Positions 26,089-62,154 of a stretch of 64,000 nt of DNA are shown here, piece after piece. The first letter of the stretch is position 1. Every line of letters begins with the position of its first letter. The translations under genes and the position numbers were made by a program. This DNA is from a virus: IMG/VR virus record IMGVR_UViG_3300042319_002138, positions 124,001-188,000 of that record; one strand, given 5' to 3'. The notes under the pieces were generated by a model. The model worked only from the letters and a program-made list of their open reading frames with translations. It had not been told where the DNA came from and searched no databases.

Positions 26089-26297
26089 TGGGATTTAATA
26101 AAAGAATTATTAAGAAAGAAATTTTATTAGAAAGATTTAGACTTGAGGGTTATCAAGGAATTATAAATTATATAGGTAATGCTGATGCATTACTTGGTTT
26201 AACTGATGAAATAAGGGAGATATTGGATATCACTTACTGTGATAATTGCCCAACTAAAAAGAATGTTGAGATTAATAAAGTAATAAATGGCAAATAA
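26088..26297 (+). CDS. Small hypothetical protein with CxxC
   Basis: A 69-residue protein starting at ATG 26088 in the TGATG junction with primase. Helix-rich, with C-D-N-C-P near residue 52. It overlaps the following nuclease gene by 11 bases. Function unknown; co-expression with primase suggests a replication accessory role. Confidence 0.65.
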   Translation: MGFNKRIIKKEILLERFRLEGYQGIINYIGNADALLGLTDEIREILDITYCDNCPTKKNVEINKVINGK

Positions 26298-27036
26298 ATG
26301 GGAAACACAAGTTTGGTTAGAACCGATAGAACATAAATATTATCATAAGGAAACTAACGAAGTTTTTAAATCAGTAACAACAATTTTATCATTATTGGAA
26401 CCTCATTTCGATAGTGACTCAGTGGCTTACGCAATATCCCAACAGTCGGATGATGTAAAAAAACCTGAGTATGTTGGTATGACCAAGGGTGAGATATTAG
26501 TAGAATGGGAACGTATTAATCGTGAGGCAAATGAATATGGTACTGAAGTCCATGAAATATTGGAGAGGTACCTATTGGCTGATAGGATATACATACCTAA
26601 AAACGATTATGAAAGAGAGGTAATAAGTAAATTCCAAGAAGTAGATGATATGTCTGGTACAGTTTACCCAGAAGCAGTTTTATTTAGTGAAAAATATAAA
26701 ATTTGTGGAACAGCGGATATTGTAGAGGATTGTGGTGATTATTTTAATATATTGGACTTTAAAACAAATAAAGAACTAAATTACATATCAAAATACAATC
26801 AATGGTTAAATAAACCAGTATCACATTTATCAGATTGTCAATACAACGTATACGCTCTACAACTATCTATATATGCATACATGATACAAATGCAAACAAG
26901 AAAAAAAGTTGGTAAACTACAGATATTTTATTTAAACCCACAAAAAGATTATACCTTTGAAAAAATTAATATGCCCTATTTGGGTAGGGATGCCAAAGCA
27001 ATTTTGGACTATTGGTTAGAAAAAAATAAAAAATAA
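26287..27036 (+). CDS. PD-(D/E)XK nuclease, RecB/Cas4-like
   Basis: A 249-residue protein with the motifs of the RecB-type nuclease fold: helix with H-E (TEVHEILERYL, about residue 82), G-T-A-D (about 140), then I-L-D-F-K-T (D-x-K, about 157) and Q-x-x-x-Y (QLSIYAYM, about 198). No iron-sulphur cysteine cluster as in Cas4. Such phage enzymes are exonucleases for recombination or for degrading DNA; the substrate here is unknown. In operon with primase. Confidence 0.8.
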   Translation: MANKWETQVWLEPIEHKYYHKETNEVFKSVTTILSLLEPHFDSDSVAYAISQQSDDVKKPEYVGMTKGEILVEWERINREANEYGTEVHEILERYLLADRIYIPKNDYEREVISKFQEVDDMSGTVYPEAVLFSEKYKICGTADIVEDCGDYFNILDFKTNKELNYISKYNQWLNKPVSHLSDCQYNVYALQLSIYAYMIQMQTRKKVGKLQIFYLNPQKDYTFEKINMPYLGRDAKAILDYWLEKNKK

Positions 27037-56515: not shown

Positions 56516-56828
56516 ATTTGGAACATATATAGAAATGGAAACAGAAACTAGTACAAAAATAAGTACAGATAAACTCGGAGTGTTTGTTGAACGACTTAAA
56601 AAAATAGGAATTGATGTAAAACTATCAGGAAATTTTCCTTGGGTTTATCTTGGTAAAATCAATGGTGTTAGAGTTACTGAAACATTTTATGCTAATCACG
56701 GGTTTACTGTGATGTTTCTTCCTAGTAGAATGGATAGTCCACCATCCGAGTTTACAGACATTACGGAGATTTTTAAATTAATTAGAAAATATACAAAAAA
56801 ACCTATTGACAAATCAGAAAATAAATAG
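56499..56828 (+). CDS. Hypothetical protein
   Basis: A 109-residue alpha/beta protein; ATG 56499 preferred over an upstream TTG. No family recognised. Its end lies inside the promoter of the Ro60-like gene. Confidence 0.65.
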   Translation: MEVKTKFGTYIEMETETSTKISTDKLGVFVERLKKIGIDVKLSGNFPWVYLGKINGVRVTETFYANHGFTVMFLPSRMDSPPSEFTDITEIFKLIRKYTKKPIDKSENK

Positions 56829-56834
56829 TATAAT
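56806..56834 (+). promoter_or_regulatory. Perfect sigma-70 consensus promoter
   Basis: TTGACA (56806-56811), exactly 17 nt, TATAAT (56829-56834). It drives the Ro60-like gene at 56877 and probably the structured RNA. It is unlike the TAnnTTTG promoters elsewhere in the window. Confidence 0.75.
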
Positions 56835-56876
56835 TTATAACTGTTTTAAAGAAACCTAATTAAAAAAATAGAAATT

Positions 56877-58319
56877 ATGTCAAGATTAACTGAAGCATTA
56901 CAAACTGAAAACACAACCACTAAGAACGGGATGGAAACTAATTCATCTTCTCTTAATGAGTGTGTTAACCTTTTCTTCTCCATTGGAGCAATGAGAGGTA
57001 AAAGTTCTGAGAGTGTTGTAAAACTTTTCTCAAAGGCTTTCAGTGAAGAACCAACTACAGCATTAAGAATCCTTTTTTGGGCAAGAGATGTTAGAGGTGG
57101 TGCTGGTGAGAGAAAAATCTTTAGAGATATTTTATCTTACCTAGTTGATAACTACTCAAAAGTAGTTAAAGTTAATCTTAACTTAATTCCTGAATACGGG
57201 AGATGGGATGACGTTCATATCCTTTTCGGAACTGAATTGGAAAATGACGCCATCACACTTCTTGTAGAAGGTTTAAAAAGTGGTAATGGTTTATGTGCTA
57301 AATGGATGCCCCGTAAAGGTTTGGTATTTAATAAAGTACGTAAAGCACTTAAGTTGGACCCAAAATCCCTTAGAAAATTACTTGTGTCTTTGTCAAACAC
57401 GGTAGAACAAAAAATGTGTTCGAAAAGTTGGGCAGAGATTGAGTATTCAAAGACACCATCTTTGGCTATGTCAAGGTATACAAAAGCTTTTGGCAGAAAC
57501 GACCAAGAAAGATTTGGTCAATTTATTGAAGCCCTTCAAAAAGGTGAAACTAAAGTTAACGCCGGAGCTTTGTATCCTTACGATGTTACCAAGAATCTTA
57601 GATTCGGTAATAAAGATTTGGCTAATGAACAATGGAAAGCCCTACCAAATTATATGGAAGGTTCAACAGAACTTGTCCTACCTTTGGTTGACGTTTCAGG
57701 TTCAATGGATTGTTCGGTAGGAGGTAATCCAAACCTTACATGTATGGAGGTGGCTATTTCTTTGGGTATGTACATCTCTGAAAGAAATGAGGGAGCATTT
57801 AAAGATATGTTTATGACATTTTCTTCAAATCCCGAAATTCAAAAATTGATGGGTCCACTTAGTGACCGTTACAATCAATTAGCTAGAGCTAAATGGGGTA
57901 TGTCAACTAATTTAGAAGCAGCGTTCAAGACTATCTTGAATCAAGCAGTTAAATTTGGTGTTCCACAGGAAGAGATGCCAACAAAGATTCTTATCCTATC
58001 CGATATGGAGTTTGATTCCGCTACTAGTAGTGGTTGGGGAAATGAATCTGATTGGAATCCCTCGGCTATGTCGATGATTGATGAAATGTACACTAACGCT
58101 GGTTATGTAAAACCTGGAATTATTTTCTGGAACCTACATTCCAACGGGGGTAATTTCCCAGCAAGATTTGATGAGGTTGGAACTGCTTTAATTAGTGGTT
58201 TCAGTCCATCAATCTTGAAATCGGTTCTGAATAATCCTAACAGTTTAACACCTGTTAATATTATGAATGAAACCGTACATTCAGAAAGATATGAACCTGT
58301 AAAGGTTTGGATTCTTTAA
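56877..58319 (+). CDS. Ro60/TROVE-like RNA-binding protein with vWA domain
   Basis: A 480-residue protein. The N-terminal two thirds is helical and carries ALRILFWARDVRGGAGERK, the repeat-type motif of TROVE/DUF2828 proteins. The C-terminal third is a vWA domain with a complete MIDAS: D-x-S-x-S in LVDVSGSMD (about residue 274), Thr in MSTNLEAAF, Asp in LILSDMEFD. Ro60 proteins are rings that bind Y RNAs and misfolded RNAs, and bacterial members handle rRNA and RNase complexes. Directly downstream lies a structured RNA, a likely partner. Confidence 0.8.
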   Translation: MSRLTEALQTENTTTKNGMETNSSSLNECVNLFFSIGAMRGKSSESVVKLFSKAFSEEPTTALRILFWARDVRGGAGERKIFRDILSYLVDNYSKVVKVNLNLIPEYGRWDDVHILFGTELENDAITLLVEGLKSGNGLCAKWMPRKGLVFNKVRKALKLDPKSLRKLLVSLSNTVEQKMCSKSWAEIEYSKTPSLAMSRYTKAFGRNDQERFGQFIEALQKGETKVNAGALYPYDVTKNLRFGNKDLANEQWKALPNYMEGSTELVLPLVDVSGSMDCSVGGNPNLTCMEVAISLGMYISERNEGAFKDMFMTFSSNPEIQKLMGPLSDRYNQLARAKWGMSTNLEAAFKTILNQAVKFGVPQEEMPTKILILSDMEFDSATSSGWGNESDWNPSAMSMIDEMYTNAGYVKPGIIFWNLHSNGGNFPARFDEVGTALISGFSPSILKSVLNNPNSLTPVNIMNETVHSERYEPVKVWIL

Positions 58320-58320
58320 A

Positions 58321-58848
58321 ATATTGTGGTATTGAGGAATAATTGCAGCAAAATTAAAATCTTAAATTTATAGCTACATAAGAGAGGGCTTTGATAACCC
58401 GTCTAACCACAAGGGTGTAAAGGTGAAAGCCGGGGACCACTCAGAGTTAGACAAAAGAGTCAAACGATTCTGTTACCACAAAATTATTAAAAAGGTGTAA
58501 TGGGTACGTCAAACGAGACTATAAGACCCAATAAACGAATGGTTTCTGCAAATTCTTCTAGAAACTTGTAAGAACGACGAGGGGTTTTACCGATTTACCC
58601 CAAATTAAATTATAAATTGGCGACCATAGGAGAGTTTAAACGTGGGAAAATCTCACACTTGAGGTCGTAAAACATACCTCTTGATTATCACAAGTAAAAA
58701 TGGTAGTTGGATTTGTCTCAATCAAATAAAAGACACCCGAACCAAAATGGGTTAATAATATTGGGGTGGTTACTCAGCCACCGAAAATAACAAAAGGACC
58801 ACCATTCCGACACCTAATTTTTTAAAGGGAGCTTGTCTCCCTTTTTTT
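58321..58848 (+). ncRNA. Large structured non-coding RNA candidate
   Basis: About 590 nt here have no gene. The region folds on paper into many helices: TTGTGGTA/TACCACAA (58324-58331/58474-58481), GTCTAAC/GTTAGAC (58401-58407/58446-58452), AGAGTC/GATTCT (58456-58461/58466-58471), TGGGT/ACCCA (58501/58526), GTTTCT/AGAAAC (58542/58560), GGGGT/ACCCC (58581/58597), CGACC/GGTCG (58621/58663) enclosing GTGGGA/TCTCAC, AATGGT/ACCATT (58699/58801), GGTGG/CCACC (58765/58778). One 60-nt block (58381-58440) is 53% G+C, against 23% just before it. It is bounded by the Ro60-like gene and a terminator. Family unknown; ROOL/GOLLD-type giant RNAs or a Ro-bound RNA are possible. Confidence 0.7.
58824..58848 (+). 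terminator. Rho-independent terminator of the structured RNA
   Basis: AAAGGGAG, loop CTTGT, CTCCCTTT, then Ts to 58848. Confidence 0.9.
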
Positions 58849-58881
58849 ATTTTACTATACTTAATAATTAACGGTTTTATT

Positions 58882-58909: not shown

Positions 58910-59128
58910 ATGACTAGAATAGAAGAGATATTTTTTGAGGCTTTTGAATTGGGTATTCAAAATAAAATGTACGACACAGTATCTAAAATGGTTGGTAGTG
59001 GCGATTATAAATACGTGGAACTCCGCCAAATTTATGAAATTGCTTTTGAAAAAGAAAAAAAGGTTTTAATTAATAATAATTTATATGAACAAACAAACAG
59101 TTCAGAAGTTTATCAACCGAGAGCTTAA
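58910..59128 (+). CDS. Small hypothetical protein
   Basis: A 72-residue helical protein; ATG 58910 preferred over the TTG at 58904. It overlaps the next gene by 44 bases. Function unknown. Confidence 0.6.
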   Translation: MTRIEEIFFEAFELGIQNKMYDTVSKMVGSGDYKYVELRQIYEIAFEKEKKVLINNNLYEQTNSSEVYQPRA

Positions 59129-59816
59129 GGCTAAAGATATTTTCTATTTAAAAGAAGTTACCAAAAAAGAGGCTTACGATTTTGTTAAAACTTATCACTA
59201 CTTGGGTGAAGCTAAATTTTTTGCTAAATTTTCTTATGCTGTAATTGATAGGGAGACTGAAGATATCATTGGTGTTGCTACTTTCTCTAATCCACAAGGT
59301 AATGTAGCTTTAAAGGGTTGGTTTGGTTTATCCAATGATAACCAAACGGTTTTAGAACTTAGTAGACTTTGTGTTTTACCTGAATTAAATGGTACAAACC
59401 TAACTTCATACCTATTAGGTGGTAGTATTAGATTACTAAAAAAAGAAGGTGTTAAGGCAGTTATAACATTAGCGGATGATAGTAGACATAGCGGTAGTAT
59501 ATATCAGGTCTGTAACTTCACCTATTACGGCTTAACAGATAAGAAATCAGATTTTTTTAGATGGGATGGTAAGGTTAACCCTAGAGGTTCAACAAAAGAA
59601 GTCCAAGGTGTTTGGATTCCTAGAACAAGGAAACATAGATATGCTTATATTATTGATAAATCTTTAAAGTGCTTATATATTGAAGAAATGAGACCACAAA
59701 AAGGTGATACAAATGAATATGATTGTTGTGCCGGTAAAAAACAAATTTACGACAATAGATTTAAAAAATGGTATTCTTGCCCCAAATGTGATGAAATAAC
59801 TGAATTAGCTTTTTAA
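59085..59816 (+). CDS. Mom-like GNAT-fold DNA modification protein (A)
   Basis: A 243-residue protein: KTYHYLGEAKFFAKFSYAVI, GVATFSNPQG, ELSRLCVLPELNG, ITLADDSRHSGSIYQVCNF, and HRYAYIID near the end, the wording of the phage Mu Mom / GNAT-like family that adds carbamoylmethyl-type groups to adenine. A C-terminal zinc-like knuckle (CCAGK...YSCPKC) is extra. Such changes protect DNA from restriction enzymes. A second, divergent relative follows one base later. Family by recognition; chemistry inferred. Confidence 0.7.
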   Translation: MNKQTVQKFINRELKAKDIFYLKEVTKKEAYDFVKTYHYLGEAKFFAKFSYAVIDRETEDIIGVATFSNPQGNVALKGWFGLSNDNQTVLELSRLCVLPELNGTNLTSYLLGGSIRLLKKEGVKAVITLADDSRHSGSIYQVCNFTYYGLTDKKSDFFRWDGKVNPRGSTKEVQGVWIPRTRKHRYAYIIDKSLKCLYIEEMRPQKGDTNEYDCCAGKKQIYDNRFKKWYSCPKCDEITELAF

Positions 59817-59817
59817 A

Positions 59818-60612
59818 ATGAAATATTTTTTTGAAATTAAAGAGATAGATAAAACTCTTGCTATAGAATTTGTACAAGAAAGACACTATTCAAAAGTAAT
59901 GCCTAAATTAACCAAACATTGGTTAGGTTGTTTTTTAAACAATGAGTTAGTTGGTGTTGTTACATTGGGGTGGGGGACACAACCCTTACAAACAATTAAA
60001 AAGTTATTCCCGAACTTAAAATCAGAGGATTATTACGAAATTGGTAAGATGTGTATGGATGATTCTATGCCTAGAAATTCAGAGTCACAGATGTTAGCTC
60101 AAGTAGTTAGATGGATGAAAACTAATTTACCTGAAAAGAAATTTCTTTATACATGGGCAGATGGAATTGTGGGTAAAGTTGGGTATGTGTACCAAGGGTC
60201 TAATTTTTATTATGGTAATTTTATTTGGACCGATATCTACATATCACCTTTAGGGGAGAAAATACACCCAAGAAGTTCAAAAGCTTTATTGAAAGAAAAT
60301 GCTGAATTTTCGGGTAAAGAAAAATTATTTTGGATGACCCCTGATTTTATAAAAATAAAAGGTATTCGTAGAATTAGAGGAAAACAATTTAGATATATAT
60401 ACCCCCTGAATAAAAAATCAAAAGAACTTTTAAGAAGAGAATCTACGGTAGTATGGAACAAAATATACCCAAAAGAAGTTGACCTGTTATGGAAAGAACA
60501 AAAAGGTAAAGGTGATTATGTTTTATTAACGAGTAAACCTGAAATGAATTTAAGTGTTGTTGAATATAATCAAAACAATGTTAATGCACATAAAAAGTTA
60601 AAGAAATCTTAG
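59818..60612 (+). CDS. Mom-like GNAT-fold DNA modification protein (B)
   Basis: A 264-residue protein: ERHYSKVMPKLTKHWLGCFL, GVVTLGWGTQPL, YEIGKMCMDDSMPRNSESQM, LYTWADGIVGKVGYVYQG, IHPRSSK and FRYIYPLNK, again like Mom-family proteins but clearly different from the gene before. Tandem Mom-like genes suggest a two-step or two-site modification, or specialisation. Start ATG 59818 is one base after the upstream stop. Chemistry inferred. Confidence 0.7.
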   Translation: MKYFFEIKEIDKTLAIEFVQERHYSKVMPKLTKHWLGCFLNNELVGVVTLGWGTQPLQTIKKLFPNLKSEDYYEIGKMCMDDSMPRNSESQMLAQVVRWMKTNLPEKKFLYTWADGIVGKVGYVYQGSNFYYGNFIWTDIYISPLGEKIHPRSSKALLKENAEFSGKEKLFWMTPDFIKIKGIRRIRGKQFRYIYPLNKKSKELLRRESTVVWNKIYPKEVDLLWKEQKGKGDYVLLTSKPEMNLSVVEYNQNNVNAHKKLKKS

Positions 60613-61532: not shown

Positions 61533-61769
61533 ATGGAACCAAAAAAACTTTTAAAAATACATAGTTTTTTATATGGTATAAATGAAATCTTAGGATATAA
61601 GGGTAATACTATTATAGAGACTGATTATATCTACGCACCATATTTACCTATGTTTATAGAAGAAGATTTTAGACCTAGGCAAGGGATTGCTTCAAGGTAT
61701 GCACGAAAAATCGTGAATAACAATTTTTATGGGAGAGTTACACTTGGAGCCGATACGCAAAATACCTAA
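61533..61769 (+). CDS. Small protein resembling C-terminal segment of gp23 capsid
   Basis: A 78-residue protein. TDYIYAPYLPMFIEEDFRPR followed by Q-G-I-A-S-R-Y resembles the end of T4 gp23 (Y-S-P-Y-V-P-L...F-Q-P-V-L-G-F-x-T-R-Y-G). Too short for a shell protein. The next gene resembles an earlier part of gp23. It overlaps that gene by 41 bases. From memory; needs a profile search. Confidence 0.6.
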   Translation: MEPKKLLKIHSFLYGINEILGYKGNTIIETDYIYAPYLPMFIEEDFRPRQGIASRYARKIVNNNFYGRVTLGADTQNT

Positions 61770-62154
61770 ATTTAATTTTGACAATTCAATAAATTTTAAT
61801 TTTAATTCTTACACTGTTAATGCGGGTGCAAGAACAATACGTGCAACATGGTCACCCGAATTAGCACAAGATTTACAAGCATACCACGGGATAGACGCTG
61901 AGGCTGAATTAACGAGGTTATTATCTGAGGAATGGGCTAGAAGTATTGATAGAGAAATTATTAATACTCTTCTTGCTCAAGATTTAATAACCGTACAACC
62001 ATTAGGCCGACCAATCGGTCATCTTTTTTATTTCGATTCCCAATACGAAACATTCGAACCTAAAGTTTATGACGATGGTTCTTGGAGTCTAAAAAATATT
62101 TTTGAAAGTTCCATTGGTTTTAAAATAGAAATATCCCCACATAAGTTTATTTAA
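61729..62154 (+). CDS. Protein resembling internal segment of gp23 capsid
   Basis: A 141-residue protein. Residues about 35-85 (RTIRATWSPELAQDLQAYHG, then DAEAELTRLL and REII) closely resemble the gp23-family stretch E-L-A-Q-D-L-x-A-x-H-G-x-D-A-E-A-E-L...N-R-E-I/V. The following part (PLGRPIGHLFYFDSQYE) is not gp23-like. ATG 61729 overlaps the preceding gene by 41 bases. Together with the neighbour and the gene at 30461 it covers three gp23 segments as separate genes. Confidence 0.65.
   Translation: MGELHLEPIRKIPKFNFDNSINFNFNSYTVNAGARTIRATWSPELAQDLQAYHGIDAEAELTRLLSEEWARSIDREIINTLLAQDLITVQPLGRPIGHLFYFDSQYETFEPKVYDDGSWSLKNIFESSIGFKIEISPHKFI

Follow-up and report, generated by a model that had tools for sequence, protein, structure and literature searches.

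A structured two-module RNA encoded directly behind a Ro60-like gene in a phage genome: a candidate Ro ribonucleoprotein

Introduction

Ribonucleoproteins (RNPs) of Ro proteins and Y RNAs are an already known kind of particle, and Chen et al. 2014 reportedly described Y RNAs in bacteria and mycobacteriophages. In Deinococcus, a Y RNA tethers the Ro protein Rsr to PNPase (as cited in PMC7790460). Y RNAs or TROVE proteins in phages are mentioned in PMC7824862 and PMC7765460, and overproduction of a mycobacteriophage Ro-like protein was found to be toxic (PMC13148394). The closest described case is Listeria phage CKA15, where, according to the relevant passages of PMC12282133, a protein homologous to the one studied here is found in virions, and abundant non-coding RNAs, the most abundant region being named as 26,236-26,727, lie just upstream of the Ro-like gene; the authors guessed these to be Y RNAs. 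Among the papers searched that name DUF2828, the Pfam family of the protein described below, the titles and abstracts were about plants, and we found no study of its RNA there.

Here we analyze a stretch of 64,000 nucleotides ("the window"; bases 124001-188000 of a 226,303-base virus record, IMGVR_UViG_3300042319_002138) and demonstrate, by sequence comparison, the structure, conservation, module content and genomic linkage of an RNA encoded directly behind a Ro60-like gene.

Results

A Ro60-like gene and the RNA behind it

In the 480-residue protein, Pfam recognizes DUF2828 (E = 6.5e-35; 121 bits against a curated cut-off of 29) and DUF7788 (E = 1.1e-45; 156 bits against a cut-off of 27). The MIDAS motif of its vWA domain (DVSGS; DxSxS) is intact, with D272, S274 and S276 invariant across 27 phage proteins. 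An AlphaFold model built from 31 relatives reached moderate confidence (pLDDT 77), and the sole matches below 1e-3 that Foldseek retrieved for it from the PDB were two Ro60 structures, 9nfa (1.7e-5) and 9nep (2.5e-5), both with probability 1.00, TM scores of 0.45-0.55, about 12-14% identity and similarity over the full length. A PDB sequence search with the single protein gave no match, and a search with the protein profile retrieved TROVE/Ro60 alone, at E values of 0.012-1. The PF05731 TROVE model matched neither this protein nor any other part of the record, the control genome being positive. Given the Foldseek matches and the missing Pfam TROVE match, the protein is Ro60-like by its modelled fold and not TROVE by sequence family. 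An earlier note on this DNA, which spoke of a TROVE/vWA-type protein, was thus right about the vWA domain with its MIDAS and about the Ro60 fold, and wrong in the TROVE label, as Pfam files the protein under DUF2828; it also placed the start at 56806, some 70 nt ahead of the actual ORF. Overall, 682 phage records in one collection encode a DUF2828-type protein, mostly annotated as "hypothetical" or "RNA-binding", and a single-protein scan of 84,980 species genomes retrieved just four close relatives, all in metagenome-assembled bins.

The sequence behind the gene is occupied by a structured RNA (Table 1) that forms two closed domains, P1/P2 and P3/P4, with one module (described below) in each. 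Module 2 is complete, and the helix of module 1 has 4 bp, with mismatches on either side. Much of what the earlier note had read from the letters holds: an ORF search of 58320-58855 found none of at least 50 aa, in keeping with a gene-free stretch; the RNA follows the gene with practically no gap, its first helix beginning 5 nt past the stop codon; the two long exact helices, UUGUGGUA/UACCACAA with its 158-nt span and GUCUAAC/GUUAGAC, are present; and a strong terminator, a hairpin followed by a T-run, ends the RNA. The locally raised G+C that it described stands in comparison with the DNA just downstream (0.34-0.39 against about 0.26-0.30), but the Ro-like gene itself is equally G+C-rich. No promoter was identified for the RNA.

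Table 1. Features of the gene and RNA (window positions)
Feature	Position	Strand	Basis
Ro60-like protein gene (DUF2828 + DUF7788, vWA with MIDAS DVSGS)	56877..58319	+	480 aa; ORF, Pfam, AlphaFold, Foldseek
Structured non-coding RNA, ~525 nt: two Ro modules, ornate interior, terminator at end	58324..58848	+	nhmmer homologues behind gene; covariation in 22 relatives; no Rfam match
P1 5' strand UUGUGGUA, pairs with 58474-58481	58324..58331	+	UA to AU and GC to AU changes in relatives; 4/8 pairs with two-sided change
P1 3' strand UACCACAA, 158-nt span with P1 5' strand	58474..58481	+	Exact helix present; covariation
Module 1, 5' side: helix strand GAAU, linker AAUUG, CAGCAA box (58346-58351)	58337..58351	+	GAAU..C.GCAA invariant in 22 relatives; family motif
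Module 1, 3' side: helix strand AUUC, then UG	58467..58472	+	AUUC-YG invariant in 22 relatives
P2a GUCUAAC (58401-58407)/GUUAGAC (58446-58452), inner hairpin 58422-58431	58401..58452	+	5/7 pairs with two-sided change; missing as a unit in some relatives
P3 5' strand GGUGU, pairs with ACACC 58810-58814; closing helix of 3' domain	58494..58498	+	2/5 pairs with two-sided change; 100% paired
Optional hairpin P3a/P3b	58502..58529	+	5/6 pairs with two-sided change; missing as a unit in 7 relatives
Module 2, 5' side: GAAUGG, UUU, CUGCAA box (58546-58551)	58537..58551	+	Family motif; relatives' alignment
Module 2, 3' side: CCAUUC, then CG	58802..58809	+	Family motif; relatives' alignment
P5 hairpin CCGAUUU/AAAUUGG	58590..58620	+	3/7 pairs with two-sided change
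P6/P7/P8 arm; P8 wholly and P7 mostly lost as a unit in L015, L016	58621..58667	+	6/14 pairs with two-sided change
P11 hairpin; loop 58742-58744 probably pairs with 58762-58764 (pseudoknot)	58735..58764	+	3/4 P11 pairs change on both sides; covariation
Intrinsic terminator, AAAGGGAG/CUCCCUUU hairpin (58824-58844) and T-run	58824..58848	+	Sequence; position conserved in relatives

The surroundings of the RNA hold further features. It is followed by a tandem pair of Mom-family (DNA modification) genes (window 59085-59816 and 59818-60612). The match of a short ORF further on (61533-61769) to Gp23, the major capsid protein of T4, is confined to the C-terminal part (304-366 of 376); this ORF overlaps a second one (61729-62154) and represents either a gp23 fragment or a split gene. 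The record also carries 25 tRNA genes (G000:188908-212674), most of them grouped in clusters that begin some 6 kb beyond the RNA, and scanning the genome for Ro modules yielded none among these tRNA genes.

Conservation of the RNA structure

An RNA-profile search (nhmmer) over all fetched loci retrieved 25 distinct copies of the RNA, 22 of which were aligned; relatives still have the sequence behind this gene when their protein has fallen to 73% identity. RNAalifold predicted 50 pairs on this alignment, 21 of them with two-sided change. The structure that we tested comprises 78 pairs in 17 helices, and was written from the window sequence and partly chosen on these same relatives. Across the 22 relatives, 92.0% of its cells were paired, as compared to 84.7% in shuffled alignments, and sliding the partners by one column reduced pairing to at most 46%; because of the partial choice on the same relatives, this slid control flatters the structure. 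Two-sided changes were seen in 33 of the 78 pairs, a count reached by none of 500 shuffles, and the helix TTGTGGTA changes by compensation in several relatives.

In a tree-aware covariation test the top covarying pair of the RNA (columns 480-502) joined a hairpin loop to a downstream strand, so that the P11 loop probably forms a pseudoknot. Beyond the top few pairs, all-against-all covariation was weak because the alignment splits into two clades, and we therefore counted changes over the named structure instead. Whole hairpins, moreover, are gained and lost as units among the relatives. We regard this comparative evidence as decisive for RNA structure: the covariation among homologues that the earlier note had asked for is strong, and its picture of an ornate, multi-helix RNA is supported in the 22 relatives, probable pseudoknot included. 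That a spacer without function, or with a short ORF, folds by chance would fit the single-sequence result, in which the advantage over shuffled sequences was modest (z = -2.1; 3 of 100 shuffles), but this reading is refuted by the two-sided covariation, the sequence retention over the range of protein identity given above, the hairpin turnover and the lack of a conserved ORF, and its probability is practically negligible.

The RNA could not be assigned to a known class. An Rfam search of 58324-58848 gave no match up to E = 1, and the Rfam matches in the window, two weak chance ones and a terminator-like RsaF, all lie outside the RNA. Neither the covariance models of ROOL, GOLLD, OLE and other large RNAs nor those of group I and other self-splicing introns matched it, and it interrupts no gene. 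The permuted tRNA-like domain of YrlA (RF02553) was absent from it up to E = 1 and was seen only in other phages (e.g., L098). A DNA search of the named phages with the RNA retrieved no meaningful match. In its sequence the RNA is neither a GOLLD nor a ROOL nor one of the classical Y RNAs, and the match to an unrelated Rfam family, which the earlier note had named as a refutation, did not appear. The remark of that note that it could not name such a pairing was fair: the RNA is Y-RNA-like but of an undescribed, ornate form.

A recurrent module beside Ro-like genes

Reading the gene-free stretches of more distant relatives revealed a shared module, composed of a 6-nt 5' helix strand, 3 nt, the box C(A/U)GCAA, and a complementary strand 14-350 nt later that is followed by YG. 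We found 33 anchors of this module in 24 stretches, against a mean of 0.22 in first-order Markov sequences, and none in 34 kb of coding gene. In 25 non-redundant loci downstream of the gene, 35 of 55 C(A/U)GCAA boxes had a perfect 6-nt complement with YG at a spacer of 3, and each of the other spacers from -1 to 8 yielded 0 or 1 box. Nearly all perfect complements (42/43) were followed by NG (21 UG, 14 CG and 7 AG). Since the helix letters vary widely (GGAUCG, GGUUCC, GAAUGA, GACCGU, GGGUAU and others), it is the pairing itself that is conserved.

The linkage to the gene is equally consistent. The window-type RNA lies behind the gene in all 22 close relatives with upstream sequence available, the comparison that the earlier note had proposed, and modules of the same geometry are found downstream of it in 23 of 25 non-redundant relatives. 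The module adjoins the gene in Felix-O1-like, Listeria, Staphylococcus, Vibrio, Campylobacter, Enterococcus and Cronobacter phages, and further instances occur in loci from metagenome-assembled genomes assigned to Endomicrobium and Roseiflexaceae. When searches were started from the RNA, using GGATCGGTACAGCAAA, they retrieved 47 modules; for 36 of these the fetched stretch included the gene, and most of the others were cut by contig ends. Three loci considered as gene-less RNAs (L213, L252 and L259) were rejected, all three being one coding coincidence.

A scan of both strands in eight complete named phages placed 23 modules no more than 3 kb from the gene, without exception on its strand, and 22 modules in the remaining 930 kb, with 15 in the reversed control; four of these 22 form an ordered array in the tRNA cluster of phage S13. 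Seven of the eight phages carry a module near the gene and on its strand, and the eighth, Faith1, has none near its gene. No module was found near the Ro-like genes of Aeh1, Ahp1 and Erwinia phage pEa_SNUABM_12, or adjoining 13 cellular TROVE genes beyond chance-like matches. In one group of loci (L044:4452-4817 and its relatives L062, L063, L065, L066 and L081) the RNA is separated from the Ro-like gene by an ORF of 121 aa.

This linkage bears on whether the RNA is a free-standing ornate RNA of the ROOL/GOLLD type that sits next to the Ro-like gene by chance. Its size and ornate fold would suit such an RNA, and Listeria phages do have a true ROOL some 1 kb away from their Ro-like gene; but besides the missing Rfam match, the module is common to unrelated RNAs whose sole common factor is the Ro-like gene, and searches that start from the RNA lead back to that gene. 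A chance neighbourhood is therefore highly improbable. In the Listeria P100-like phages ROOL adjoins the Ro-like gene with 91.5 bits (L094:968-1519; OR088597.1:26195-26746), and the region of CKA15 reported as most abundant falls inside this ROOL, the Ro modules of that phage being at 25551-25289. The unexplained abundant RNA of CKA15 is therefore, by position, probably ROOL.

Modules were also found in leaders of Ro-like genes. In KVP40 and phage 1.081.O (L083:2466-2507 and L084:2466-2507) the leader reads GACAUU-NNA-CAGCAA .. AAUGUC-AG, with the AUG of the closing strand being the start codon of the gene, and forms a candidate autoregulatory operator; leader modules are likewise present in phiM7, DLP6, CP30A and LR756501. 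Since the KVP40-type module overlaps the start codon, binding there would be predicted to hide the start site, and autoregulation of the Ro-like gene is predicted. The window RNA might alternatively be a cis-acting 3' UTR through which the protein stabilizes or represses its own mRNA, with no separate trans-acting RNA. The leader modules, two of them with the start codon inside the closing strand, speak for such a reading, as does the position of the RNA 5 nt past the stop codon; the closeness of gene and RNA could also reflect cis-regulation. However, in many relatives another ORF intervenes (L044, L062, L063 and L065) or the RNA lies upstream of the gene or among tRNAs, the window RNA has its own terminator, and 17 helices with a pseudoknot go far beyond the needs of an operator. 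We therefore consider a purely cis-acting role unlikely.

Relation to tRNAs and Y RNAs

In other phages the module is associated with tRNA-like bodies. The RNA that it encloses in Enterococcus phage A2 is YrlA-like (E = 8.5e-7, below the gathering threshold); in Cronobacter phage S13 and a Felix-O1-like phage it encloses, by visual examination, a T-arm, acceptor hairpin and D-arm in permuted order. A reversed form, with the 3' strand, UG, a short loop, the 5' strand, NNN and CAGCA in this order, makes up the anticodon arm of tRNA-like RNAs, 113-121 nt long, from S13 and Vibrio phage MS02. The enclosing form and the reversed one are related by circular permutation: in both, the Ro module takes the place of the anticodon arm in a tRNA body. 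In S13 (L082:4359-4601) the RNAs annotated as tRNA-Ser (121 nt) and tRNA-OTHER (113 nt) carry the permuted module as their anticodon arm, and are probably Y-RNA-like and not working tRNAs. Four more modules lie between tRNA genes of this phage (L313:1078-3080; S13 120478-122480), two of them enclosing more than 100 nt.

Chloroflexota TROVE genes are accompanied by tRNA-like RNAs of 107-149 nt that carry, by visual comparison of the motifs, another recurrent arm in the place of the module. In six loci (L335, L336, L337, L339, L340 and L341) this long arm reads CUUCUACGUC..UUCCUCG..CGAGGUGAUAGUAGGAG. These RNAs are apparently cellular Y RNAs, which Rfam scores as tRNA only.

The tRNA mimicry raises the possibility that the window RNA is a decoy or sensor of tRNA damage directed against host anticodon nucleases, with the Ro-like protein serving as carrier or repair platform. 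Its sister RNAs are tRNA mimics and located in tRNA arrays, in some phages the neighbourhood of the Ro-like gene includes RNA ligases or a tRNA splicing ligase, and a TROVE platform has been linked to RNA repair in jumbo phages (PMC7824862). The window RNA itself, however, is without a tRNA-like part, and RtcB and the PF09414 RNA ligase were not found in its own record. We consider this role rather unlikely; it would be compatible with the Ro RNP that we propose below.

Discussion

Our results point to a locus that probably encodes a phage Ro RNP, in which a Ro60-like protein is paired with an RNA made just behind its gene, a Y-RNA-like scaffold with two modules. The earlier note had proposed that the RNA is the partner of the protein; conserved neighbourhood and shared motif stand behind this, and binding is what we infer from them. 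The Ro60-like HEAT-repeat/vWA protein would bind RNA transcribed from the DNA just behind its own gene. The putative site at which phage Ro-like proteins dock is the module, with its 6-bp helix, the C(A/U)GCAA box joined to it by 3 nt, and YG next to the closing strand. As the window RNA carries the module twice (P2 and P4), in each case on top of an outer helix (P1 and P3), one scaffold would have room for two protein copies and may well hold both. Some observations count against this reading: the 4-bp helix of module 1 with its neighbouring mismatches, the missing tRNA-like domain of the window RNA, the phage Ro-like genes that lack a module in their vicinity (Aeh1, Ahp1, Erwinia phage pEa_SNUABM_12 and Faith1), the cis-regulation that the closeness of gene and RNA could equally reflect, and the moderate confidence of the protein model. 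Its ornate interior would replace the tRNA mimic as effector; in the clade of the window, the mimic of other phages appears to have been swapped for a large compact fold, pseudoknot included.

Since the Y RNA of Deinococcus tethers Rsr to PNPase, the most likely role of the window RNA, by analogy, would be that of a tether or gate: it probably tethers the Ro-like ring to a partner (a nuclease, the ribosome or a tRNA enzyme) or gates RNA cargo during infection. In a broader reading, to which we lean only slightly, the DUF2828 phage proteins would form a Ro RNP system of their own, with one docking code placed on interchangeable bodies: permuted tRNAs, anticodon arms, compact hairpins, the start-codon region, and the ~525-nt two-module RNA, which would build a multi-protein particle, perhaps in virions.

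With a precise RNA signature, an unnamed family of RNA-binding proteins becomes a testable RNP. The signature locates RNAs in laboratory-grown phages (Felix-O1-like, KVP40, P100-like and SEP9) and accounts for some peculiar annotations of phage S13, its "tRNAs" of 113-121 nt. The window RNA is an undescribed structured RNA, and Y RNA biology gains natural variants in which the tRNA mimic is swapped for a large ornate fold.

Among known systems, ROOL (RF03087) and GOLLD resemble the window RNA in being large ornate phage RNAs that often lie near tRNA genes; the window RNA differs in bearing Ro modules, and matches them in neither sequence nor structure as modelled in Rfam. The protein shares its overall fold and a vWA domain with MIDAS with Ro60/TROVE proteins (PF05731; PDB 9nfa, 9nep), and its phage relatives carry the annotation "Ro-like RNA binding protein"; it differs from them in sequence (~12% identity) and is matched by the DUF2828/DUF7788 models and not by the TROVE model. 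The putative Y RNAs of CKA15 were suspected near the same protein family, there found in virions; the relevant passages of PMC12282133 give neither motif nor structure for comparison with the present module.

Bacterial Y RNAs (YrlA, RF02553, with Rsr/Ro60) are, as here, encoded beside a Ro-family gene. In YrlA a helical arm on the Ro side is joined to an effector domain, which in the sister phages is likewise a permuted tRNA; the window RNA, in contrast, is ~525 nt long and has two modules and no tRNA-like domain. The phage motif, C(A/U)GCAA .. YG, also differs from the consensus stem of YrlA and from the arm of the Chloroflexota TROVE-linked RNAs. We take this to mean that the phage module RNAs have the Y RNA architecture in common with these RNAs, and a different docking sequence that would fit their divergent protein.
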